Position numbers and translations under genes: made by a program. Below the pieces are notes generated by a model. It did no database searches. It was not told the DNA's origin and saw nothing but the letters and a program-made list of their open reading frames with translations. A stretch of DNA of 64,000 nt, taken from assembly GCA_001574975.1 (NCBI GenBank), contig KQ965850.1:62001-126000 (forward strand), written 5' to 3'. The DNA is from Gonapodya prolifera JEL478. Taxonomy: Eukaryota > Monoblepharomycota > Monoblepharidomycetes > Monoblepharidales > Gonapodyaceae. Positions 650 to 63,411 of this stretch are shown one piece after another; the stretch's first letter is position 1, and each line of letters begins with the position of its first letter.

Positions 650-1480
650 ATATGTAACTGGATTTTAAAGTTTCGCTGCAAGCATCAACATAACAGTGCA
701 AGGATCTTTCATATCTTTGTCGAAGTGCATAAACACCTCGCGTTCTTCGAAGCACAACCTGCGGTAGAAAGACAAGTTCTTCGCACTACTACTTGTCAGG
801 AAGCACGGCAGTCCATCTTTGTCCGCCCGATCCAACAGGTCCGCGAGCACCTTCTTCCCCACACCAGCTCCCTGGTGTCCCGCTTTTGTTCCGATAGTGT
901 GGACAAAGTAGAGCTTGTCCTTGCTCTTTCCAAGGTGTTTGCTCAGCGCCTTGTCAGTCAATCTTCCAGTCTCGATGAGGGCTCGCTCAACAACAACTGG
1001 ATCTCGAAATAGAGACTGAACGATGAATCCCAGAAACCCAAGAGCTGCTCCAGTAAAAGGTGGTACTTCTGCGTGGTACCCGGTGGAAAGGAAATAATTG
1101 CGGCGACCACTTCTACTGAAGAAGCATCCCAAAGGGACATCGGGAGGTTGGTTGACCATGGCGCATACGGAGCGCGGGATGGATTGTGTGTAGAGGATCC
1201 AGGTACGGTAGTATTCGTCGACAAGTTTGGGGCTTGGTAGGGCCCCACCGTGGATCCATTTGAGAAAGGGATCTGGGGACAGGGGAAGGCACATGCTCAG
1301 TGAGTTAGACAGGGTACACGGACGGGATGCACTTGTCCAACTCACCTTCTTAAAACGTAAGTCGGAAGCACTCCACGGCGCTCTCTACGAGAGCTTGGTG
1401 CAGCTTGGGATCCTTGTCGTGATACGAGTGCACATCGACAAAGGTTTCACGAGGGGCGATTCCGTCATTTAGGTGGAGAG
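650..1480 (-). repeat. Left arm of a gene-sized inverted duplication
   Basis: This arm matches 6603-7430 in opposite orientation, covering the whole GNAT gene, its single intron and a little flank on each side (for example ACTCTC upstream of the ATG and AATCCAG-TAC just after the stop). The arms are about 5.1 kb apart and enclose the redox fusion gene. Confidence 0.8.
665..1468 (-). pseudogene. Decayed GNAT acetyltransferase, inverted copy of the gene at 6615-7419
   Basis: This is the minus-strand twin of the intact gene at 6615-7419, alike in exon, intron and flanks. The first exon (ATG at 1466-1468) has lost one G after the fourth codon relative to the twin and carries an in-frame TAA just before the splice donor (twin reads Asn-Asp there). 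In exon 2 an extra G and a missing G about 50 nt apart change a short block between DVPL and GYHAEVPP. After that the frame is open to the stop at 665-667 and keeps the acetyl-CoA region. It could at best make a truncated protein from an internal start. The damage is seen directly; loss of function is inferred. Confidence 0.8.
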
Positions 1481-1628: not shown

Positions 1629-4600
1629 ATGCGACTGGCACGCCGACTGGCCGGATCGCATGTCTCGCCCGCTGTGGCTGTGTGGGCGATCGCAATCGCT
1701 GCGCTTCTTTGGGTGCCCGCATTCGTCGCAGGACTCAACGACACCGCACTGCAGTCCGCATGTGGACTCACTTCTCAGGACTTTGAAGATCTGCGCATCA
1801 TCGTCGATGGCCTGGTCCAGGGCGGGTTGGGACCCAAGCTGCTCCGTCTTGCGCATGCGGATGCCATTTCATACAGCATCCGGAGCGGGCGGACGGGAGG
1901 AATGAGAGGGACGCTGAAGCTGTATAGTAACTCTTCGCTTCCTCCTGGGTTATCTGCAATCATGCCCTTCTTGGAGGATTACAAGATCCTCCATCCCAAA
2001 GCGAGCTGTGAGTGACTGTCGACTGACACGAAAGCCTGTCTTGAACTTCACCTTCACCGTGGAACGGAACTATCCCCCCCCCCCTGCAGACGCCGACATT
2101 TGGGCGTACGCAGCGTCTGTGGCGATATCGGAAAGCCGGGGGCCGGCTGTACCCTATCGCTGTGGGAGAAAGGATCTCAATGCCACACAGTTCACTCCAG
2201 CCCCGTCGTTGCAGCCTCAAGGAACCTGGAACGCGAGTCAAATTCGAGCGCGGTATTCCGACATGGGGTTGACGGACAACGAAACGATGGCGATTTTCGC
2301 AATGCGCGGAATGGGGTGAGAGTGAACTCCACCAGACCGCAGACGATTGTCAAATCTTGACGACACATGATGACTGTCCCCACTAGACGAATGCACCCTG
2401 ACGTTTCGGGATACGATGGGAGAACAACTCCATTCTCGCTCTTCATCACCAACGCGTACTTTATTCAGCTCACAAGAATGACTACATTTGTTTACTCCTC
2501 TAGCGCCAAGCAATGGGTAAACTCGGCATCAAAAACGGCCATGATGCCGTCGGATATGTCTTTGATGAACGATACGTCATTCCAGGGTGCGGTTCAACGG
2601 TGAGCCTGAGTCTGAGCCTGGAACGTTTTTGTCAAAGGGTCTCGCTTCACCAAACTCGAAATACCAACACAACAGTTACGCCGCAAACGCAACTCTCATG
2701 TTCACCGATTTCGTCCCCGCCTTTGTGAAGTTGTTGGAGCTCGGAACGACGTCATTCTATTCCGAGTACATCCCCACAACGTCCTCCAACAATAGCGCAG
2801 GAGCGAGCACAAGCACAGCTTCCCTTACCGATGGGTCGACCACGTTCCGCAGCCTTCGATACACCGGACCTCGCACCGTCCAACTCTCATGGCGGATTCG
2901 CGACCCCTACATCGACTTTCAGGTCTCGTGCACGTGTCTCGGATGGTTCGCGATCGGGTTCGGCTTGAACATGGCAGACAGTGAGAACCATGTCGCTCTT
3001 GTCGCTCTGGGATAATCCCATGACTCACAAATTCATTGAGCAGTGGATGCCATCATCATGGAGAATGGTGCCAACGCGTCAGACAGGTACGCCTCGGCCT
3101 ACACGCTTCCCTACACCGACATAGCCCGGGGGGGCACAGACGATGTTTTGAACTTCACCGACATCACCGCTACCAGTAACGTGTCGTCGGACGGTATCAC
3201 ATGGACGCGAGTCGTCGCGTTCAGCAGGCTCCTTGTCACGGGTGATCCATACGACAGACCGATCCGACGAGGTAAGGAGCTCCTACTCTATTGATTTCGT
3301 CCCCGTGCACTCAACTATTAGTCTACGCGCACTGCGCACTCACGAATCATCGCTAGGCGAACAAACCGACCTTGCCGTCGCATTCTCCGACAACCCGACG
3401 CTGCTATGGCACGGCGCCAGCGGATCCGTCCGACTCGGTAGCTTTGACTTATTCGCCACCTCCAACAGGTCAGACTTGATTAACACTTCGAGCACGCCTC
3501 CGGTGCGACCACTGAAATACGTCCACGGAGCGAGTATGGTGTTTAGTTTCGTCCTGTGCTCGTTTGGAGTGCTCGCGGCGCGGTACCAGGGCGGCACTGT
3601 GTCGCGGCGATGGCTCGAGTGGCACCAAACGTACGTGAGCCTCGCATCTGGAATCGAAGCGGGCGACTGTAAGCTGTGGTTGATCGTCAGTAAAATTCTA
3701 ATCCGTATATTCTTCTTCGTCTGCGCAACAGGTTGTCGACTCTGTACTACGGGTCCATGACACTAACATTTATGAGTGCTCTCGGAGGTCAACTCGCAAG
3801 CGGCGCGCTCGTGGAATACAAGGGCGGCTCCTTTGCGGTTGTTTGGCATCCCACTTTGGGTGAGTGAGCTGAGCATGAAGCCGTAAAACTCAGTCACCTA
3901 GAGATCCACTCTTCTCCTTCAAGGTATTACCGCGTATGGAATATGCGCCTTGACAGTGTTTCTGGGATATATGTCTGCGTCGTACTTTCAACTGCCCTTC
4001 TTGCGCGAATTCTTCATCCGCAACCAACTCAACGTCCGAAGAACGCACTCGGTCTTGGGCTACGTGGTGTACTTTTTCTCCATGGTGGTAGCCACGTGGG
4101 GCAGCTACGACTTGTTCTTGGGTGACCCCATGGCGACGACCTTATTCGCAGCAGTCATTGTCGCTGTTCCAGCGACACTGGTGGTTCTGGGAGAAAAGGA
4201 TAAGAGAAAGGTCTACAAGGAGGTCCAGAGGAGAAAGTCCTCTGTTGTCATGGAGAGTAAAGAGGGAATTGCAAAGGAAGCCTTGTATGGAACGTTCAAG
4301 AGACAATTGCCCAAGATGACTTGGGAAGAGTGAGTGTCGTTGTTTTCTCTTAGCGCACGTTTTATTTTGTAACATCGGAAACTTTGAAGCATCGAAGAAG
4401 CTGTCCTTGAAGGTGAACAATTGATTGTGATTGACAATGTCATTTACCACGTCGAAGACTTCATGCAAGGTACGTTAAGCTGTGTTACAGTGTCATTGTT
4501 GTATAAAACATGTTTCCTTGTGGTCGGCGACAGTCCATCCTGGTGGTACTCGCGGCCTGAAATCCTTCATTGGGCAAGATGCGACAGCAGTGTTTGGGGG

Positions 4601-5872
4601 GCTCGAGGCGTTCCCTTCCAAACAAGTTGAAGCCGGGCAAAGCGACTTGAACCTGCCGTCCATAATACACGCTCACTCTCGCGTCGCGCGCTATCAGCTT
4701 CAGAGTATGGAGTATGGGCGATTGGTGGAGAGGCGAAGCAGGTCCAACTCGGTTGCCTCTGGTGACCTCCTGCGCCGTCCTAGCAACATTAGGATACGGA
4801 ATGCGAGCATTGGACCTGATAGACCAAGCACTCTGGAGCGAAGCAGTGGCAAGTCCAGACCCATGAGTCTTACCCCTGACGTCAAGATTTTCGCATCATC
4901 GCAGCTGTACGAGGCAGATCACCCTCCTGGGAAGACCGACCTCGCTCCAGTTCTCGAAGCCAAGTCTAATGAAAAACCCTCATTACCTTTACCGACCACA
5001 TTGATCTCAGAGGATGGTTTCCCTGTGTGTGAGGTATCGGCCAAGACTGTCTGCAACTCTCCCTTATCGGATCGACCAATCATGCACATAACTATGATGC
5101 TTTTGTCGAATGAATCAATGTGCTTCCGTCCAGGGAGCTATGTCATGCTACAAATGAAGGATCCTCAGACTGGCAAGCTCGCTAGGCGACCGTACACACC
5201 CATAGTGATCCGTGCTGACGCTACCATCCATCTGGAATTTCTCATCCGAGTGCATGCTCGCGGGTACTTTAGCAAGCTGCTCCAGAAATCAATGAACGTC
5301 GGGGACTGGGTCTCGGTCAAGCCTGTTGCTCCAACTGTGGACGAGCGCCGAACAGCTCTCGTGTGGAACCCTCGACATCCAGCGGGTCTCTACAAGTCCA
5401 TTGTAGTACTCACAAAAGCGACTGCGTTGACATCGCTACTGCAGCTTGTCAGATACTATCTTGCTTTCGCCAAGGACCAGTCATACAAGATAGTCGCGTT
5501 GAATTGTCAGTCAACCGAATTGGACATTTTCTTTGAGGATATTTTGAAGGGGGCGGTTGCCGAGTCGGCGGGGAATTTTCACCTCATCAACTGGCTTCAG
5601 TCTGCCCCATCAAGTTCGGCTTCGGAATCGCAACTGCGTGATCGCGGTTGGAGCTGGGGTACAGTCTCTGAGGGTCTCATTTCATCGCTTATACGGGCTG
5701 CTGGTGGAGCACCAGATATTTTCTATGTGACCGGGTGAGCTCTAACAAGGCTAATGTTATCAGTCGCTGTTTTTCAAGCGCCCTTCACGCCATTAGGTCC
5801 CCAGAGTATGTCGGTACCGTTAGGGGCTTTCTCACAAAACTGCACGTCGACGAGAACAAGATCATATATTAG
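1629..5872 (+). CDS. Secreted/membrane redox fusion: peroxidase-like, DOMON, cytochrome b561, cytochrome b5, FNR
   Basis: Eleven exons join in phase: 1629-2007, 2090-2315, 2387-2599, 2676-2980, 3044-3271, 3357-3630, 3732-3859, 3924-4329, 4390-4469, 4534-5734, 5797-5872, giving 1171 residues. Order: signal peptide or anchor (about 1-35); plant/fungal haem peroxidase fold (about 40-295, SYADIWAYAASVAI and a KLLELG end); DOMON (about 340-490); b561 with four membrane-side His (YVHGAS, EWHQ, VWHPTLG, RRTHSVLG; about 505-680); cytochrome b5 with HPGG and HSRVA (about 720-800); ferredoxin-NADP reductase-like part with RRPYTP (about 900-1171). The b5 and FNR parts would be cytosolic and could pass electrons across the membrane to the DOMON side. 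Both peroxidase haem histidines are replaced (RLAHADA for RLAWHDA; FAMRGMG for SGAHTLG). The usual Gly-rich NAD(P)H loop and CGPP are altered. Role is inferred: transmembrane electron export. Confidence 0.88.
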
Positions 5873-6614: not shown

Positions 6615-7430
6615 ATGACAGAATCGGCCCCTCGCTACACATTTGTCGATGTGCACTCCTACCGCAACGAGGATCCTAAGCTGCACCAAGCTCTGGTGGA
6701 GAGCGCCGTGGAGTGCTTCCGACTTGCGTTCAACGACGGTGAGTTGGACAAGTGCATCCCGTCCGTGTACCCTGTCTAACTCACTGAGCATGTGCCTTTC
6801 CCTGTCTCCAGATCCCTTTCTCAAATGGATCCACGGTGGGGCCCTACCAAGCCCCAAACTTGTCGACGAATACTACCGTACCTGGATCCTCTACACACAA
6901 TCCATCCCGCGCTCCGTATGCGCCATGGTCAACCAACCTCCCGATGTCCCCTTGGATGCTTCTTCAGTAGAAGTGGTCGCCGCAATTATTTCCTTTCCAC
7001 CGGGGTATCACGCAGAAGTACCACCTTCTATTGGAGCAGCTTTTGGGTTTCTGGGATTCATCGTTCAGTCTCTATTTCGAGATCCGGTGGTTGTTAAGCG
7101 AGCCCTCATCGAGACTGGAAGATTGACTGACAAGGCGCTGAGCAAAAACCTTGGAAAGAGCAAGGACAAGCTCTACTTTGTCCACTCCATTGGAACAAAG
7201 ACGGGGCACCAGGGAGCTGGTCTGGGGAACAAGGTGCTCGCGGACCTGTTGGATCGGGCGGACAAAGATGGACTGCCGTGCTTCCTGACTAGTAGTAGCG
7301 CGAAGAACTTGTCTTTCTATCGCAGGCTGGGTTTCGAAGAACGGGAGGTAATAATGCATTTCGATAAAGAGAAGACAAAGCCTTACACCGTCATGGTGAG
7401 ACCGGCAACAAAGCCTTGAATCCAGCTACT
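6603..7430 (+). repeat. Right arm of the inverted duplication
   Basis: This arm pairs with 650-1480 in reverse orientation and contains the intact copy of the GNAT gene. Confidence 0.8.
6615..7419 (+). CDS. GNAT-family N-acetyltransferase
   Basis: Two exons, 6615-6738 and 6812-7419, join across a GTGAGT...CAG intron to 243 residues. The C-terminal half has the GNAT core: a beta-strand and acetyl-CoA loop (FVHSIGTKTGHQGAGLG, the Q/R-x-x-G-x-G/A type), then KVLADLLDRADKDGLPCFL, and the closing YRRLGFEERE helix-strand typical of the fold. Family knowledge says it moves an acetyl group from acetyl-CoA to an amine; the substrate cannot be read from sequence. An N-terminal part of about 120 residues resembles fungal acetyltransferases of the GCN5 type that start with a helix-rich segment. 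It is the working member of the inverted pair. Confidence 0.88.
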
Positions 7431-14835: not shown

Positions 14836-15812
14836 ATGATTTCGTCGTCCATCGCTCCACGCAGAGCAGTCCACCGCGCAGCCGCGAACGCCACATGCAC
14901 GAGCCGGCCACGGCTATTGGCGCCTGTGTGTGTTTCTCCCGCGAGCACGAGCAGATTCAGCTCAGTAGCAGGAGTAACAGAATCCGATGAAGCAAGGAGT
15001 AGGAAGGACGCCATCGACGCTCTCCTGCGCGTAGACCATGCGGGCGAAATCGGCGCAAATGTCATCTACAAGGGTATGTGTCCTCGATGCGTGTGCGATG
15101 CTTTGAGCTCGCCAAGATTGAACTTCTCCTCACCCCCCGTCCCTCTCCCCCACCACGTACGCAACGCCCAGGTCAAATCGCCGTGCTAGGGCGAGACAAG
15201 GCCGTCCGCCCCATGCTGCAGCACATGCTGGACCAGGAAGTTGTGCACCTTGCCGAGTTCGACTCCCTCCTGGCCGAGCACCGCACACGGCCGTCCCTGC
15301 TTCGACCCCTGTGGGAGGCCACCGGGTTCACACTGGGTGCCGTCACGGCGGCTATGGGCAAAGAGGCCGCCATGGCGTGCACGGAGGCCGTCGAGACGGT
15401 CATTGGAGAGCACTACAATGACCAGATCCGGGACTTGCTGGAGCGAGGGGACCCGAAGGATGCCCAGCTTATTGCGACGCTGAAGCGGTTTCGGGACGAG
15501 GAGCTGGAACATAAGGATATCGCAGTGGAGAATGATTCGCAGCAGGTGAGAAATTTGTCAGGCTTGCGGGGTGTGGGGTGTTGGTGGCAGGTGCTGGAGA
15601 TTCAACTGGAATGCTCACTCATGGAGGACACGTAACATGTTCGACAGTGGGAGTTGAAAATCTTGAAACAAGAATTTTGACAATTGGCTGCACTGCGCAC
15701 TCATTGTTTCCCTTGACCCTCGACCTCGCACTAGGCCCCTTTCTACACCGCACTCTCAACAGTCATTCAACAGGGGTGTCGGGCAGCCATATGGGTCGCA
15801 AAAAGAGTTTGA
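14836..15812 (+). CDS. COQ7: 5-demethoxyubiquinone hydroxylase
   Basis: Three exons, 14836-15073, 15172-15545 and 15735-15812, give 229 residues. An Arg/Ser/Ala-rich start of about 40 residues with no acids fits a mitochondrial presequence. The di-iron ligands are present: VDHAGEIGA, LDQEVVHLAEF, KEAAMACTEAVE and RDEELEHKDIA, and the tail GCRAAIWVAKRV matches the family's closing GC..AI..SER. It hydroxylates demethoxyubiquinone in coenzyme Q synthesis at the inner mitochondrial membrane. The last intron (189 nt) is longer than most here. A diverged copy of the last exon lies about 1.17 kb downstream. Confidence 0.95.
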
Positions 15813-38671: not shown

Positions 38672-41531
38672 ATGGCAATCCATCCATCATTGGAGCAGAA
38701 CGGAGTCCCGGCATCTCTTTTGATCGTTGGAGGATTCACGGTTCTCTTTTCGTTCGTCTCCTTGATCGTGAAGGAGCGACTGTTCATAAGCCAGCCGCTG
38801 CTTGCAACATTGGTCGGCGTACTTTTCGGTCCCGTCGCCTTGAACTTCTGGGACCCGTTTGCTTGGGAGCAAGGAGCATGGCTGTCCGTCACGCGTCAAT
38901 TCGGGGCGTGCATTATTGCAATTCAGTGAGTAAATTCGCGATTTCAACAGTTCTTCTGGCCTGAACGAAACATTTCGTCTTTATTTCATTTAAGAATATT
39001 TGCAAGTTGCTTGCCTTTTACTAAAATCTGGTGGATGGAAAATTGGCAGTCCTTGGCGGTGAGTGAACCAGAACAAGTTGCCTGACGTGCCATCACGCTA
39101 ACTTGCTCAACGACAACCAAATCAAGGTGATGCTACTTCCAGTCTCGGCATATATGTGGATGGCAACCAGTCTCCTTGTGTGGGCGATTGTCAGATGCAG
39201 TTTTGTTAATGCCCTGATAATTGGTGCAGTTTTAACCCCGACTGAGTACGTTTTCAAAAATGTGGAGGCTTAAGCCCACCAGGTGATTGTTGACCAAGAG
39301 CTGCTTCAGTCCAGTCTTAGCAAACAGCATCGTGAAGGGTCGATTTGCGGACATGCACGTGTCAAGGGCAGTGCAGGAGCTTCTCTCCGTCGAGAGGTGA
39401 GCGAGACGTTCCAAAGTGCTCTCGCAGGCTAGATATCCTCACTGTGTTCGAATTTCAAAAAGTGGTGGCAACGACGCAGTGGCGATCCCATATTTTTCCC
39501 TCGCACTCTTTCTCGTGGAGTTCTACGTCCCCACAGTTTCTTCCTCCACGAAGGAGGTCTTCTCAAAAATGGCGGAATCTCTAATGTTCCCTCAGGAATA
39601 TTTTGACTTACACGACTACAAATTAAAATCCCTGGGAGACGTTTTTCTCAAATGGTTTCTCGAAGGCGTTCTCTACGAGGTCGTGCTGGCCGTCGTCCTC
39701 GGATTTGTCTTGGGTTATGGCGCCAGATGGCTCTTGGAGGAAAGCGAAGAGCGAGGATGGATCGACAACGAAAGCATCCTCGCGTTCTCAATTGCGCTAT
39801 CCCTGTTTGTTCTCGGAGTAGCGGACATACTTGGACTAGCGTCGTTTTTCGCCGTTTGGGTGGCGGGAATCTGCTTCGCATGGGACGGCTGGTTCGCCGA
39901 ACAGACCAAGAACTCCCATTTGCAGGAAGTTATCGACAATTTGCTATCCACAGCCTTTTTTATTTATTTTGGTATGTTTTGTTTCACGTTCATTTCCTGG
40001 ACTGCCACTGAAATTAACCTCGGCTCGTCGGTTCAATCAGGCACAACTGTACCCTTCTCCTCATTCAACTCAGAAAGTGTTCCTATCTGGCACTTGGTCC
40101 TCCTTTCCCTTGGGCTTCTGTTTCTCCGACGACTACCAGCTGTGTCAGTTGCCTATCCCCTTCTGAGAAAGCTGAACAATCATCATGAAGCGTACTTCGT
40201 AGGATGGTTCGGCCCGATTGGTGTTGGCGCCCTTTGGTACGCAGCGTACGCTGTGGATAAGGGCGCTGTTGACCCTGTCATTGTTCCTGTAACTTGGTGG
40301 ATGGTTCTCACCTCGCTAGTTGTTCATGGCGCAAGGTATGTGTGAACGGTGGCGCCAGTTATCGACCAACATTTCTCAACTCTTGTGATCGACCATCTCG
40401 AACCTCGGTATGCATTGCCCGCAGTGTGCCGTTCGTTCATCTGGTGAGTATACCCAAGTTAAAATTTGAGCGCCCGTTTCAACTTATCTTTGTAAACCTT
40501 TCGCCTGAATCACGTAGTCCATTCTTGCAGTCAGCAGATCCCGAGATCCTTCGTTTGCAGTCCCACGAGGGCCAGCCGGATGGACGGGTGGTCGACTGAG
40601 CATTAGCGCTCCAATCTTGACCACCCGCCCTCCTTCGTTGAGGCCGCCAAGCAACTACTCTTCAGGCGACGGAACTCGGGCGGTGCGGACTGACGAAAGC
40701 GGAGGTGATGGCTCCGAGATGTCAAAGAGTTTCAATGGGGGACATCGGAAATCAGTGGACGCAAATACCACCCTGCCTCGATTGTCCGTGGCGGAGGAGG
40801 AGGATGGGGAAGGTCTTTCCGACATGCTTGGGCACGGTATACCTTTCCCTGGAAGGGCTGATACGACAGGATCACTACCACTATCACCACTTGGACTGCA
40901 TCGGACATGGACAGCTGAAGCGCAAAGCGTCCGAATAGATGCAGATCCATCCGCCGCGGATCAATATCCCCTCCAAGGCGGCATCTTCAGACCGTACCCC
41001 GCAGGTCGCAGCATCCGGTTTGTGGACATGGAGGACGACGTATTGGACAAGGAGTTGCATGGCCCAGGTTTGCAGTTGGTGGTCAGTGGTGAGGATGCCG
41101 CAGATGGCGACACTGAAGCCGAAGTATCAAGGGCTCGTGACCGTTGGGTGAGGGCGGTCGGTAGAACGCCTGATCTAAGCGCTAGCGCAACACGAGGTCG
41201 TGCTCGTAGCGCAGATAGATCTGGTTCTACCACTGGATGGAGGGTGCTCCCGAACTTACGGACGTTATTCCGATCGCGGACATTAGAGGCTGGTCAGGGC
41301 GATAGACACAGCCAAAATTTGGAGCAATTGGACAGTGTCGTCGTGCCTGTGGACGAACGAGGGGACCTCGCTGATCAACTTGGAGAATCTGCGGGAAGCA
41401 CTCAGCCACCTATGGAGAGCGCGGACACTGTTGTTGCAGAAGTCGCGGACACCTCAGAGATGCTTGAGCCGAGCTCTCCCAGTGCACCAAACCCCCCTTC
41501 AGAATCTCAGAGTTCTGCTCGACATATATAA
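38672..41531 (+). CDS. NHA1: Nha1-type plasma-membrane Na+(K+)/H+ antiporter
   Basis: Eight exons, 38672-38925, 38995-39058, 39127-39245, 39310-39396, 39463-39971, 40041-40335, 40425-40443 and 40518-41531, give 786 residues. The CPA1 transport core includes TPTDPVLANSIVKGRF, the fungal SGGNDAVAIPY block (usually SGxNDG), a run of hydrophobic helices and HGASVPFVHL, which is built from a 19-nt micro-exon. The last 330 residues are a hydrophilic Ser/Asp/Glu-rich tail, as in fungal Nha1 proteins. It exports Na+ and K+ in exchange for protons. The start at 38672 lies just ahead of the first helix (ASLLIVGGFTVLFSFVSLI). Confidence 0.93.
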
Positions 41532-56641: not shown

Positions 56642-56737
56642 ATTTGTATGTTGAACATTCAAAGATTTCTTCACTGCGTGAAACGTGATCCTTTCCGTCC
56701 ATACTATGCGGCGTTCAGCCTGAGTAGGCTGCATATC

Positions 56738-59700
56738 ATGGATATTCGCTCAGGAAAGCATTTCTCAAGTCCAGAGCGTGACGGACAGGAGATCGACGAC
56801 ACAGAAAGCAGGTTGAAGCGAGCTCGCCTGTCCCGTTCACCTGAGAGTCGAGGGAGGAGTCGCAGCGACATAATCGAAGACAGAAATCGACCGCCTGCTA
56901 AACGATTCAGGAGTGAACTTGGAAAAACGTTTGGGGAACGTTCGTGGAGCTCCACTGACGGAGGAGAAAGCAGTGCAATCAAGCGGGAGCACGGGCGGTC
57001 ATCCTCACGGGATAGCAACAGCGATCGTTACAGGGAATCGTCTAGCATGATTTCATCGCGTGCCAGTACCCTTCAGCATGGTGCGGGAGGGAGAATTGGA
57101 GGATCTGAAACCCGGCCTCTCTCCACCTCATTCCATGATATCAATCGGCCAAGTGGCTTCGGTAATGAACACTCTGATACTGAAATGGAAGATTGGGAGC
57201 GGAGCTATGAGAACGGCACCGTACCCACCATTGAAATGCGCTCAACAACACATTCCCGACCAGACGATGTTGATTTAGCAGAAGATTTATCATTGGGGAA
57301 CGAACGGAGGAATCAATTACCTCCTCGTCGAACGCCAATGACAACGTCTCGCTCTGGCCCGAAGCGGGTAGCCTCTTCCACAAATGCAATACCTCTAGGA
57401 CAACAAAGATTTGGGCGAGCAACCACATTCAGTGGCACGCGTAACCAATCCCCCCCACTGGCGCCTTCTTTCAGCCCACCACAAATTTCGTCTCGCAGTG
57501 TCAGCAATGTGGCTGCACCGAGGAGTGGTGAGGGGAGCTTCCCCAGGACCAACGACTCCTCCGAACATGCTGCTCAGTTGCAATCGACGCCAAACACATT
57601 TAATCCTTTTCAAGATGCCGATTATACTGAGGCCGGGCTTGAACGCGCTTTTGATTTCAGAGCCGCCGAACAATCTTTCCTCGGTCCGAAATGGTTCACC
57701 AATCCGAAATCATGTATCTCCAATCTCTACCTCCAACAGAATATTGAATCACCGCCGCCGTACGAGCTCCAGAATTTGGGTCGAAATTTTCGTTGTGTCA
57801 TCGAGTTCCAATTGGAGGAATCGAGGAGAGGTTCTGGGAGTAAATTGGATGAGAGCGAGCTCACTATTGTTGGTGTCGGAGATTCGAAATCAAAGAAAGA
57901 GGCCGAGAAGGTGCGTCTGCAGCCTGATTTTCCTTTGACGCGACTCCAACCTGAGTTGCTCTGATAGCTTGCCGCTCTACACGCATGTCTCCTGATGTGG
58001 AAGCGGGACCTTATCGAACGCGTGTATAACCGCACTTTGCAGCTTCGAATTCATGATGGGATGGGAGCCATAGCAACGAAATCATTTGAACCGGAAGCTC
58101 GTCATGGATCTTCGCACCAAAACAGACAAGAAAGTGTTTCAGTTCCGTTTCAGGATGCTAGTGGTCCGGATTTTCGACATGAAGGTTCACCAAATGAAGA
58201 CATTCAAAGCCACAGGGATCGACACATCACCAGCTCGATTTTCACTTCACGACGAGATCAGAATGACGAAAGGCTTGCAGACAAAAGGCACATTTTAGCT
58301 TACTGTGCACGTTTTGACTTCGAACCGGATTTTGACATGAAAATGATACCAGTCAAAGCACCACCAGGCCAACTTTCTCGCAACCGACGTAGCGGTGGGG
58401 GAATGCAGAGCGAGTGGGTCTGCGAGATTGCGTTTCTTGCCCAAACAATTCGAGTTCAAGGCCGTGGAAAAGCCAAGCGTGACGCAGAAAGGGACGCGTG
58501 TCTTCGCTTCAAAATTGCGGTTGATGAAAAGTTTGGTTCCGGCTATTTCGAGGATTGCGCAAATGAGGTGCTCAAGCCTCAAACGAGAAAAGAAGACCCG
58601 AGAAGTGCAAAGCAGGCGAACAAAGATCTTGCCGAGGAGGCTGGTAGATTCATGCAATGGTATACAAGGAATATTCTGCGGTTACCTCCAGGACCTAACG
58701 GAGAAGACGCATTTCGAATCGAAGTTCGAAGTGCAGACTCCAGGAGCGGTGTGCAGAAGAGAGCGAAGTTCCAAGGCGGTAACGCATGGAATGCAGTGCT
58801 TCTCATTTCGGGTAGGGAGTTTCAATCATCTGTTGGCACAAGCAAGAAAGATGCCAAAAGTTTCGTATTGATGGACGCAATGTCCAAACTACGAAATGAC
58901 CCAGAACTTGAGTAAGTCGCCACTTCTATATCCGAGTATGGTCTCAAAACAGACTTTTTAAATAGTCGCCAATGGACGACAGTAAAGAACTCCGACAAAG
59001 CGGAATCGTATCTCTTCTCGAAAGATCAAGTGATGACAATGGTTCCCATCGGCTTGAACACGTTCCAAATTGATCGAATTATGGATACGGTGGATTATGT
59101 CCGGCGCTCCAAGGCTTACGAGTCAATGCTCAGTTACAACGAGTCTTTGAAGTCACTGGTCCATATTGCGAATAAGGATTCTGCCCGGCCCCCACTACCA
59201 CCCACCAAGTCGAGTTTAGAGGCGAAGTCTTCTAAAATGCTTACAGCGCTGCGAGCTTGGGACACTTCCAGGATGCACACGAAAATGCGAGAAACCCGGG
59301 CGAACTTGCCTGTAGCGAAACATTCACAGGATATACTTGATGCTGTCGACGCGTGTGATGTTGTTGTTATTGTTGGGGCAACAGGAAGTGGAAAGACCAC
59401 TCAAGTACCTCAAATAATCCTGGACTCCTGGATCAGACAACAGAAGGGAGCTTATTGCAATATTATCGTGACACAGCCGAGACGAATAGCTGCCATTTCC
59501 GTTGCCCAAAGAGTTGCCGCCGAGAGGGGCGAAACCCTGGGACACAGTGTCGGGTTTCAGGTTCGCTTTGAATCTGTCGCTCCTGAAAAACACGGGAGTG
59601 TTCTTTTCTGTACAACAGGAATTCTTCTGAGGAAAATGCACGAGGCCGGATTAGGTCTCGATAAAAGTAAAGGCCAGGTGGAAACAATTGGAGATGACCG

Positions 59701-62700
59701 AGATGGTGCATCGCCTGATATTGAAAACGTTTTCAACGAGATCACGCATGTCGTAGTCGACGAATGCCATGAACGGTACGTTCTCTGGTAAATCGAGTAT
59801 TCCATCATCAGAATCTCAAGGTCCACGATATTCATAGAGACATGAACATTGATTTTTTGTTAGTCGTGCTGAAGAAGGTGTGGAAAGAACGGCGCAAACG
59901 AGGACTCCCTCCAATCAAATTAGTTCTCATGTCAGCAACAATTCAAGCGGATCTTTTCGCAAAGTATTTTGAAGAGGTTGATATTATCGGTGACCGGGCC
60001 AGGCGGGGAGGAGTTCCCATCGTGGAGGTACCAGGTCGAACGTTCCCCGTTAAGTACCATTATTTGGATGAACTCGTTTCGCAGTTGAGGAAGCAGTATC
60101 CGGAGAGGGCCGCTCCCCTTTTGTATAATGTCGAAACTCGTCGCTACTTGGAACGAGAGCTTCGTGTGCAGGGTGTGGTACAGGAAGACGAGAGGCGTGG
60201 TTTACTGTCACATGCGCCTCGTGATAATGGCCCCGCTAATCGCGAAAAGGATTCACGCGGTAACGACGGGATCCGTAAAGAACGAGGATATGACGATGAA
60301 TCTTCGAGTGATGATGATGACTCTGACTCCGAAATGGCAGACGATAAACACTTCGATGACTTGTCAGCTTGGGGTTCGAATCGTCAGAGATCTGGTGTAG
60401 TGCGAAATCCACTCTACGACGAGGGTGCAGATGATGTCCCATTTGGTATTCTTGCGACCACAATTGCTCATATTTGTCGAACAGCAAATGACAACGGTGC
60501 TATCTTGTGTTTTTTGCCCGGATGGTAAGGAAGATTGAGCTGAATGACGGTCATTTTTACATAATTGGCTCATTTCCAGGGAAGAAATAACCAAACTCCA
60601 TCGAATTCTCACCAGTGATCCATCTCCTCTCTACCGCGACACTTTTTCGAATCGAGACAGTTTCAGAATATATTTACTGCACTCCACTATCCCGGTTGTG
60701 CAACAACAGGCAGTTTTTGAAACACTTGGCCCGTCTTGTAGGAAAATTATTCTGTCAACCAACATTGCTGAGACTTCCCTCACCATTCCGGACGTCGTAT
60801 ATGTTGTCGATAGCGCCAGGGTCAGAGAGAAACGGTACGATCCAGCAAGGCGTATGACAGATTTGGTCGTTAGCTGGGTTGCCCAGGCGAATGCAAAACA
60901 AAGAGCGGGACGGGCTGGTCGTGTCCGCGAAGGACAATACTACTGCGTCGTTTCACGTGCGCGCTGGGACAGTGTTCTTGCTCCATTCCAAATTCCGGAA
61001 ATAGCTCGCTCAGACCTCCAAGAACTTGCACTTCACATCAAAGCGTTGGAAATTCCGATGCGAGACCGTTCTGGAAGAATGGATACAATCGAGGATGTTC
61101 TTGAACAGGCTCTCCAGCCTCCCGAGAAGGCTGCAGTTCAAGAAGCGATTCGGAACTTGAAGTCTTTGCATGCGTTGGACCGAAATGAAAACATGACACC
61201 TCTGGGTGAGTTGATAATGTCTTCCTTTGTCTCCTTTGAATCTTACGTGTCGTCCGTTCAGGCCACGCTCTCGCAGCAATTCCACTCGAGCCGACATTTG
61301 GAAGGATGGTTTTACTGGGCGTCATCTTCAAGGTATGTGTGGCGTGTGACAGCCGCTTTTGCAAATCTGATTTTGTTTTCTCTCTTTGGAGTGTTTGGAT
61401 CCAATCCTCACTTTGGCCGCGGGAATCACAAATCGAGACCCTTTCGTGTATCCACCGGATACTCGTGATGAAATTCGCAGGCAAAAAGTCTGGTGGACTG
61501 GAGGTGAACGGTCCGACCACCTCGTTCTGTTAAACGTGTGGCGTGAATGGGTGAAAAAGAAAACTGAAGTCCAGCAGAAGTATGGAAAGGCCAGTGGACG
61601 CGCCCCTGATGGAAATGACAATATGTGGATACATACAGAACTCAAAATCTGGCTGGAAACGAAATCACTCGGAAAAATCACCCTCCTTACAATCGAAAAA
61701 GTCCGAGTGCATTTATACTCCATTCTTGTAAAGAGCGGCTTTGTGTTCAACGCCGACTCTTCACCCTTTGGCCGTCGCGAGGCTCAGTATCAGAACCCTT
61801 TGGACGTATTGGGAGGTCCGGAGCTAAATGTGAACTCCAACAACATTCCAATGATCCGAGCACTCCTCTACTCCGCGCATTATCTTAACCTCACAATCCG
61901 AACGGACAAAAAGGTTTACAAGACGCAAAAGGAAACCTGTAACATGCATCCCGGGACTATTAATGCTGCAAAGTATGAGGCGGACTTTATTGCTCACGAG
62001 CTCAGCAAGATTGGTCCAAGTAATACGTTTCCTCATGTCAACAACTTAAACGTCAATCTCAAAGGAACTGGAACCTTGTATTACTACGCTGAAAAGGTCA
62101 AAACTGGTATCGTGTTTTTGAGAGGTACAACACGAATTGATCCTTTGGATGCTGCACTTTTTGGAGATGCGAGGACATCGCACACCTACACTGCGAGTAC
62201 ACGCTTTAGGACAGGCGCCAGTCAGTCGTGCTTCACTATCGATGGTTGGCTTCGGATTGGTGAGCATGACGATCGAATACTTCCAGTGCTAGAAGAGTGG
62301 AAAGAAGCCCTTGGAACATGTTTGGAGTTCTATTTCCGCAATCCTCCAGGACGAAGGAACCGATTCTTGAGCGAATCTGCCAGAGAAACAGCAGATGACA
62401 ATGGCTCTGACGATGAGGATGAGGTGGGAATTCAAACTACCTTTAACCCACTTGGTGCATCCAAGGATCAAATTTTGCAAGGAAATGCGAGTCTCAAGAA
62501 GCAGGAGTGGATCCTTGCCGAACGCATCATCCAGGATGTTGCCACAGTCATTCAAAATGAGTTCGGTTCAGGTGAAGGATCAGCTCCTGAAGCGCTTGGA
62601 TCAGCTTATGATCCGCAAAAACTGACCCAAAGCTATGACGATCATCCTGTCAAAAGAGAATCCGAGAAAGCAGTCACACCTACCGTTGAATACACCAACA

Positions 62701-63411
62701 ACAGCACATCAAGACAGGAGCATGGGCGTCATGGCGAGGACTCTGTGAGAAAGGATTGCCGTCGCGAGACTGACCGAGAAGATACACTCGTTTCATTGCA
62801 AGATCTACCGCGACAACGTCCAATAGAGTCCCGCAGAGAAGCAGATTCCTGGCGTCCGCCACCTCGGCGAGATTCTCCGGGAAGAGGCAATGATTCCTCA
62901 AGGAGCAGATCACGTGGAGGGCGCAGAAGTCGTTCACGGGAGAGACCATTACCTGAGTAGGTCTCTTTGTTCTGTCATTGGAGTGTTACGTTGAGTCCAG
63001 AAACGGTTCTGCTTTAGTTACAACACACGTTCTCGACGTTATTCCAGCTCCGAGAGATCTCGCTCCGCTTCTGGTTCAAATAGGTCGAGGTCGGGTTCAC
63101 GCTCTCGCAGAAATGTAGAAGACCACCGACGTAAAGATCGGAAACAGGAGCGCCATTTTTCTGCCAGTACGTCACACACTAGTCGCAGTGACCGTTCCCC
63201 TTCTCCACGGGATCGTACACAGGCGCGAGATGTTCGAAATGGTGACCGATGGCGACCATCGCGCAACCGATCGTCTCGTGAGACTGACTCTATATCAACT
63301 TCCTCGTTACGGCGTTTGGGAGGGGAAACCGGCAATCCGACAAGTTCAGTAGAAACAACAACCCCTGCCCGATTGCGACACCCACTGCCTCCCAAACCCA
63401 CCAGTACGTAA
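56738..63411 (+). CDS. DExH-box RNA helicase with dsRNA-binding domains and RS tail (DHX9-like)
   Basis: Eight exons, 56738-57910, 57968-58911, 58966-59775, 59838-60524, 60580-61205, 61262-61332, 61392-62956 and 63048-63411, give about 2079 residues. An Arg/Ser-rich start precedes a dsRNA-binding fold (about 305-410, PPPY... then GVGDSKSKKEAEKLAA), a second similar unit (about 500-585) and a third near 610-700. Helicase motifs: GATGSGKTTQVP, TQPRRIAA, VVVDECHER, LVLMSATIQ, STNIAETSLTIPD and QRAGRAGR, followed by HA2 and OB regions and an RS-rich tail of about 200 residues. Such enzymes unwind RNA with ATP, in the nucleus in DHX9. The first exon starts about 100 bases after the IFT56 stop. An earlier in-frame ATG exists at 56648. 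Confidence 0.9.

Follow-up and report, generated by a model that had tools for sequence, protein, structure and literature searches.

In a stretch of 64,000 nucleotides from Gonapodya prolifera JEL478 (GenBank assembly GCA_001574975.1, contig KQ965850.1, positions 62,001 to 126,000 of the forward strand), here called the window, a gene at 1629-5872 on the plus strand appears to encode a single predicted redox protein, in which a peroxidase-like domain, a DOMON domain, a cytochrome b561 core, a cytochrome b5 domain and an FNR-like reductase follow each other. The canonical haem histidines are missing from the peroxidase-like domain. The modules at the two ends of the chain look degenerate, whereas the FAD site and the putative ligands for four b-haems in its interior look intact. 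We propose that the protein may be a trans-membrane electron carrier of the CYBDOM type, with a non-catalytic peroxidase cap and with an FNR of its own that would not be the entry point for NAD(P)H; to this proposal we give about even chances. An earlier note on this DNA, made from its letters alone, had described the same five modules, and its claims are taken up where the results bear on them. Papers are cited by PMC number from parts of their text, and what is said of them holds for those parts.

Gene model and order of the modules

The exons and features of the gene, all on the plus strand, are as follows.

1629-2007, 2090-2315, 2387-2599, 2676-2980, 3044-3271, 3357-3630 (+): exons 1 to 6
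3732-3859, 3924-4329, 4390-4469, 4534-5734, 5797-5872 (+): exons 7 to 11
1629-1736 (+): N-terminal hydrophobic segment, residues 1-36 (hydropathy peak at residues 15-33, 2.39)
1737-2772 (+): class I-like peroxidase domain in which the canonical haem histidines are missing, about residues 37-305, exons 1 to 4 (Pfam and PDB matches)
1854-1859 (+): His76-Ala77, opposite Trp-His of Leishmania peroxidase 3riv on the distal side (alignment to 3riv)
2305-2307 (+): Arg199, at the position of the proximal haem ligand (alignment to 3riv)
2875-3415 (+): DOMON domain, about residues 340-470, with putative b-haem ligands Met372 and His469 (Pfam on the isolated piece; spacing compared with CRR and HYP1)
3512-4189 (+): predicted b561 membrane core, residues 503-673, with His507, His540, His581 and His626 (Pfam match below cut-off, hydropathy, order of histidines)
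4319-4709 (+): cytochrome b5 domain, about residues 717-805, with His748 (HPGG) and putative ligand His794 (HSxxA) (Pfam Cyt-b5)
5109-5321 (+): FAD-binding half of the FNR-like reductase, residues 939-1009, with RPYTP and GYFSKL (Pfam FAD_binding_6)
5415-5435 (+): KATALTS, residues 1041-1047, opposite GGTGITP, the NAD(P) loop (weak alignment to 2eix)
5730-5872 (+): C-terminal end of the reductase and stop codon, in the last part of exon 10 and in exon 11 (aligned with E. coli Hmp)

The eleven exons join in phase to 3516 nucleotides, which gives 1171 residues and a stop, and the 1171 codons contain neither a stop nor a frameshift. GT...AG borders were present in all ten introns, and the intron phases were consistent throughout. 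Retention of an intron would bring in an in-frame stop in eight of the ten cases, and would shift the frame for introns 6 and 9, whose lengths are not multiples of three. An alternative donor of intron 6, after 3634, was rejected because it breaks the frame. Codon usage, trained on other open reading frames of the window, preferred the chosen frame to both alternative forward frames in every exon (10 of 11) but exon 4, which was tied; this test is weak, as the chosen frame scored under background in six exons (1, 2, 4, 5, 6 and 7) and was outscored by a reverse frame in four (2, 6, 7 and 11).

That the modules form one chain can be argued almost independently of the predicted splicing, because no intron interrupts three of the four module boundaries. 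Exon 4 (residues 273-375) covers the end of the peroxidase part and continues into the DOMON core, exon 6 (residues 451-542) joins the DOMON domain to the b561 core, and exon 10 (residues 747-1147) links cytochrome b5 with the matched FAD half and most of the remaining reductase. Only the join between b561 and b5 rests on introns (8 and 9). The claims of the earlier note that eleven exons join in phase to a single protein of 1171 residues, and that this one chain holds the five modules in the order given, are therefore upheld, the former by the exon joining and intron borders, the latter by the profile matches and ligand residues described below together with the boundaries within exons. A second copy of the redox protein was not found elsewhere in the window by tblastn (E<=1).

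Terminal modules and the carrier core

The chain starts with an Arg-rich stretch followed by 19 hydrophobic residues, and residues 1-36 are a probable signal peptide or signal anchor. Behind it, the Pfam peroxidase family matched residues 65-277 in the whole-chain scan (5.9e-22, 79.1 bits, cut-off 27). The nearest solved structure was the Leishmania peroxidase 3riv (1.1e-28), with 79 of 246 aligned residues identical. Of 118 PDB matches at E<=0.001, the best 60 were all to ascorbate peroxidases or cytochrome c peroxidases, including one fusion with cytochrome c, and the cytochrome c peroxidase matches started at 2.5e-26. By these matches the domain is of the class I-like fold of the peroxidase-catalase superfamily.

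In the alignment to 3riv, Ala77 takes the place of the distal histidine and Arg199 that of the proximal one, the distal Asn position is Pro, and the Trp that corresponds to Trp191 of cytochrome c peroxidase is replaced by Thr. The distal Arg (Arg73) and the proximal Asp (Asp258) are retained. Five of the seven haem-site residues that were compared differ from 3riv. The claim that the peroxidase lacks both haem histidines, read from RLAHADA and FAMRGMG, thus agreed with the alignment, with the qualification that His76 immediately precedes the residue at the distal position. Opening a gap of one codon there would bring this His into register, but the ungapped alignment keeps the next acidic residue, Ala, Ser and Tyr aligned, and substitution was preferred. 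In this one assembly a base error in a single codon is possible at the proximal site, and the distal change covers two codons. On the alignment, canonical haem ligation of the peroxidase domain is lost, although one His is still found close to the distal side. The earlier idea that electrons reach this domain was not borne out, since it is without the canonical ligands for a haem.

The DOMON domain was matched by Pfam on the isolated piece (1.5e-10, 41.8 bits, cut-off 32.7) and was not listed in the whole-chain scan at E<=1; His469 lies about 10 residues beyond the end of the match. The putative ligands of the DOMON domain and the b561 core follow each other as M372-H469-H507-H540-H581-H626, with spacings of 97, 38, 33, 41 and 45. 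Such order is identical to that of the Arabidopsis proteins CRR (M89, H180, H220, H256, H289 and H325, with pairs 220-289 and 256-325; PMC10784552) and HYP1 (M90, H174, H211, H245, H278 and H314; PMC10784544), the comparison being one of order and spacing, not of alignment. Their spacings are 91, 40, 36, 33 and 36 in CRR and 84, 37, 34, 33 and 36 in HYP1, so that here the last two histidine spacings exceed theirs by 8 and 9 residues.

Cytochrome b5 was matched in the whole-chain scan (1.5e-9, 38.1 bits, cut-off 23.7) and again in a second scan (4.6e-10). An insertion lies between His748 and His794, and the Pfam matches end before His794, which we take to be the second b5 ligand by its HSxxA pattern. 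Of 15 N-glycosylation sequons, 13 precede residue 505 and two come after the membrane core, and a Lys/Arg-rich stretch follows the last hydrophobic helix. This asymmetry, together with the Lys/Arg-rich stretch, suggests that the b5 and flavin domains are inside and the peroxidase and DOMON domains outside, the side on which the earlier note had also placed the histidine-less peroxidase domain.

For the reductase, the FAD-binding half was matched by FAD_binding_6 in the whole-chain scan (1.7e-8, 35.1 bits, cut-off 21.1), and on the isolated piece it scored 37.9 bits, where E. coli Hmp and Fre gave 36.5 and 26.2. It also gave weak alignments to the NADH-cytochrome b5 reductase 2eix and to methane monooxygenase reductase. 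In the NAD(P) half, no match to NAD_binding_1 was reported at E<=10 (matches above about 0.1 are mostly removed by the HMMER filters), whereas the corresponding halves of Hmp and Fre, run as controls, scored 75.9 and 94.3 bits. The alignment to 2eix, itself weak with E about 0.02, put KATALTS opposite the glycine loop GGTGITP, and in a three-sequence MAFFT alignment with Hmp and Fre KATALTS faced a gap, so the register of the loop was not confirmed. The missing Pfam match with its controls is the stronger evidence for divergence of the NAD(P) half. Towards the C-terminus, FYVTGSP lies opposite FYLCGPV of Hmp, and the chain terminates in IIY. Binding of NAD(P)H and donation through the FNR half of the protein itself is doubtful, because NAD_binding_1 is unmatched where the controls match and the glycine loop is lost in the weak alignment. 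Of the claim that a cytosolic FNR feeds in the electrons, the FAD half thus stands, since it scores as genuine, and a working NAD(P) half is not supported.

Proposed working and rival explanations

In the working that we propose, a DOMON and b561 carrier would be extended inside by b5 and a flavin-binding reductase-like domain, and outside by a peroxidase fold. A cytosolic donor would supply electrons to the b5 haem, to the inner b561 haem or to both, and these would move on to the outer b561 haem, the DOMON haem and finally an external acceptor, which might be a quinone, a complex of ferric or cupric ions or a secreted enzyme. The donor would probably be ascorbate or a separate reductase feeding b5, not NAD(P)H on the FNR half of the chain, and such a donor is preferred because the NAD(P) half looks degenerate; b5 would then be an added entry point for electrons. 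The role of the peroxidase fold would be that of a cap without catalysis, which would dock the acceptor or shield it, much as the haem-less domain packs on DUOX1. HYP1 carries ascorbate-dependent currents and reduces Fe(III) and Cu(II) outside from cytosolic ascorbate (PMC10784544). We suggest the same basic job for the present protein because a DOMON-b561 carrier alone moves electrons in HYP1 and the interior sites look intact. A more specific version, with a haem-less peroxidase fold outside, a flavin domain inside that could not use NAD(P)H, and four working b-haems between them, seems to us possible rather than probable.

Several results weigh against the carrier proposal. The Pfam Cytochrom_B561 match stays under its cut-off of 23, at 0.0072 and 17 bits on the isolated piece and 0.51 on the whole chain. 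In the PDB, sequence comparison gave no credible relatives of the DOMON domain or of b561, only chance-like matches, and for b561 this lack counts against the proposal. The ascorbate-site residues of HYP1, R307 and N311, lie seven and three residues before H314 (PMC10784544), and the same offsets hold Gln619 and Arg623 here; neither residue is thus conserved in its place. An AlphaFold model of exon 10 made without an alignment had a mean pLDDT of 34 and was unusable. The residues on which the proposal rests come from a single locus. For the peroxidase part, 34 pattern matches in prokaryotic genome contigs and seven in viral contigs gave none that was confirmed, the one pattern match for exon 10 in viral contigs was not confirmed either, and tblastn with the reductase and peroxidase parts gave no match in plasmids; these searches covered viruses, prokaryotes and plasmids and say little about eukaryotes. 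Two NCBIfam models, MmoC (32.2 bits) and flavohaemoprotein (17.7 bits), extend over the NAD(P) half at scores far below their cut-offs, and since they span both halves the reductase fold of the NAD(P) half is probably present.

These weak NCBIfam matches also speak for a complete NAD(P)H-driven chain, in which a divergent FNR half would pass electrons through FAD, b5, b561 and DOMON to oxygen or iron outside, making the protein a functional analogue of DUOX/NOX or of ferric reductases. The FAD_binding_6 score, comparable to those of Hmp and Fre, points the same way, and so does the order of b5 and FNR, which resembles known b5 reductases. Against it stand the unmatched NAD_binding_1 beside its two high-scoring controls and, in the weak alignment, KATALTS in place of GGTGITP, and we consider such a chain rather unlikely. 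It is also conceivable that the outer domain binds haem by non-canonical ligands, His76 or a nearby Met, and has a sensing or scavenging role. In the distal pocket His76 has taken the place of the Trp, and Arg73 and Asp258 of the site are retained, but the proximal His is Arg and most of the compared haem-site residues are changed relative to 3riv, which leaves this explanation only a small chance.

The same losses could mark a gene in decay, whose catalytic ends drift as the protein loses its function. Key residues are lost in the peroxidase and probably in the reductase, and a His-less class I example drawn by Zamocky et al. 2014 is labelled a pseudogene (PMC4232752). However, the long frame over 11 exons is without stop or frameshift, its ten introns keep their GT-AG borders, the putative DOMON, b561 and b5 ligands are kept and the loss is restricted to particular sites, so that decay appears unlikely. 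Two or more genes might also have been misjoined, or alternative splicing might yield shorter products. The b561-b5 join with its dependence on introns 8 and 9 and the weak support from codon usage leave room for this, but the three module boundaries in uninterrupted exons and the agreeing intron phases make it very unlikely.

As for the surroundings of the gene, a GNAT acetyltransferase-like gene is present in two inverted copies, at 664-1457 (-) and 6627-7420 (+), which are 92% identical over 799 nucleotides, and the redox gene sits in the 5.2-5.9 kb between them. Farther on in the window are a COQ7-like ubiquinone biosynthesis gene at 15003-15635 (+) (Pfam 5.2e-50), a sodium/hydrogen exchanger-like gene at 39401-40345 (+) (Pfam 2.8e-20) and a series of long open frames at 56642-62960 (+). 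Two of these frames were scanned with Pfam: 60548-61468 (+) matched Helicase_C above the cut-off, and 58916-59791 (+) matched DEAD just under it.

Comparison with known systems

The closest likeness of the carrier core is to CYBDOM proteins (CRR and HYP1 of Arabidopsis, SDR2 of animals), which have in common with it the outer DOMON Met/His pair and a b561 core with four histidines in the same order. The b561 score below cut-off and the longer last two histidine spacings set the present protein apart. No peroxidase fold, b5 or flavin domain is described for CRR and HYP1 in the parts of the text covered (PMC10784552, PMC10784544), whereas all of these are present here. Both plant proteins were reported as metal reductases in 2024 in these papers, and a CYBDOM member with its own b5 and flavin modules and a dead cap would show how such carriers gain or lose donors.

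Among other proteins with an outer DOMON domain, the ferric reductase-domain proteins of Naegleria and oomycetes carry it on a membrane reductase core of the FRE/NOX type, not b561, and the portion of the source covered does not mention a peroxidase domain (PMC3591440). DspNOX of a sponge combines five b561-like (or DUF2427) helices with a NOX-type reductase in one chain and differs by its NOX core with EF hand and PAS; DOMON occurs 0 times in the text (PMC9524095).

For the outer domain, the Arabidopsis protein APX-L (TL29) does not bind haem, has knockout phenotypes and appears functional, and APX-L proteins are defined by replacement of all of Arg38, Trp41, His42, His163 and Arg172 (PMC8069737). 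Here Arg73 stands at Arg38, and the other four positions are replaced, by His76, Ala77, Arg199 and, judged by offset, Val208. The likeness is thus that of a class I fold with lost catalytic residues, and the differences are the kept Arg38 and the place of APX-L in the plant thylakoid lumen. His-less class I folds are mentioned by Zamocky et al. as well (PMC4232752). Fungal hybrid B peroxidases, which include those of chytrids, are secreted and have the peroxidase domain fused to another domain; they retain the haem histidines, and the fusions described are to sugar-binding (CBM/WSC) domains (PMC8945051). Where their proximal motif is L/M-V-A-C-G-H, the present protein reads MAIFAMRG, and the Pfam scan gave no WSC domain. 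The earlier note knew of no described protein with the full order of peroxidase, DOMON, b561, b5 and FNR, and this is weakly supported: searches for such fusions in a collection of open-access papers, which lacks most subscription papers, turned up no description of it.

The parallel to animal dual oxidases held as an analogy between modules of different families. In human DUOX1, the outer peroxidase domain is without haem ligand or haem density and is packed on the membrane core (PMC7794343), so that both proteins would have an outer peroxidase-derived domain without haem ligands above a trans-membrane electron path and a cytosolic flavin domain. The differences lie in the NOX core and the EF hands of DUOX; the NOX ferric reductase core, animal-type peroxidase and EF hands were all absent from the whole-chain Pfam scan (E<=1, four families listed). 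The peroxidase domain of DUOX belongs to a different peroxidase family. The resemblance would therefore be one of convergence, not of membership, and would show that membrane electron paths can acquire a peroxidase cap without haem more than once, from unrelated families. If the version with both ends non-catalytic is true, this conductor would parallel DUOX independently and without homology, its dead enzyme folds having become docking or sensing heads.

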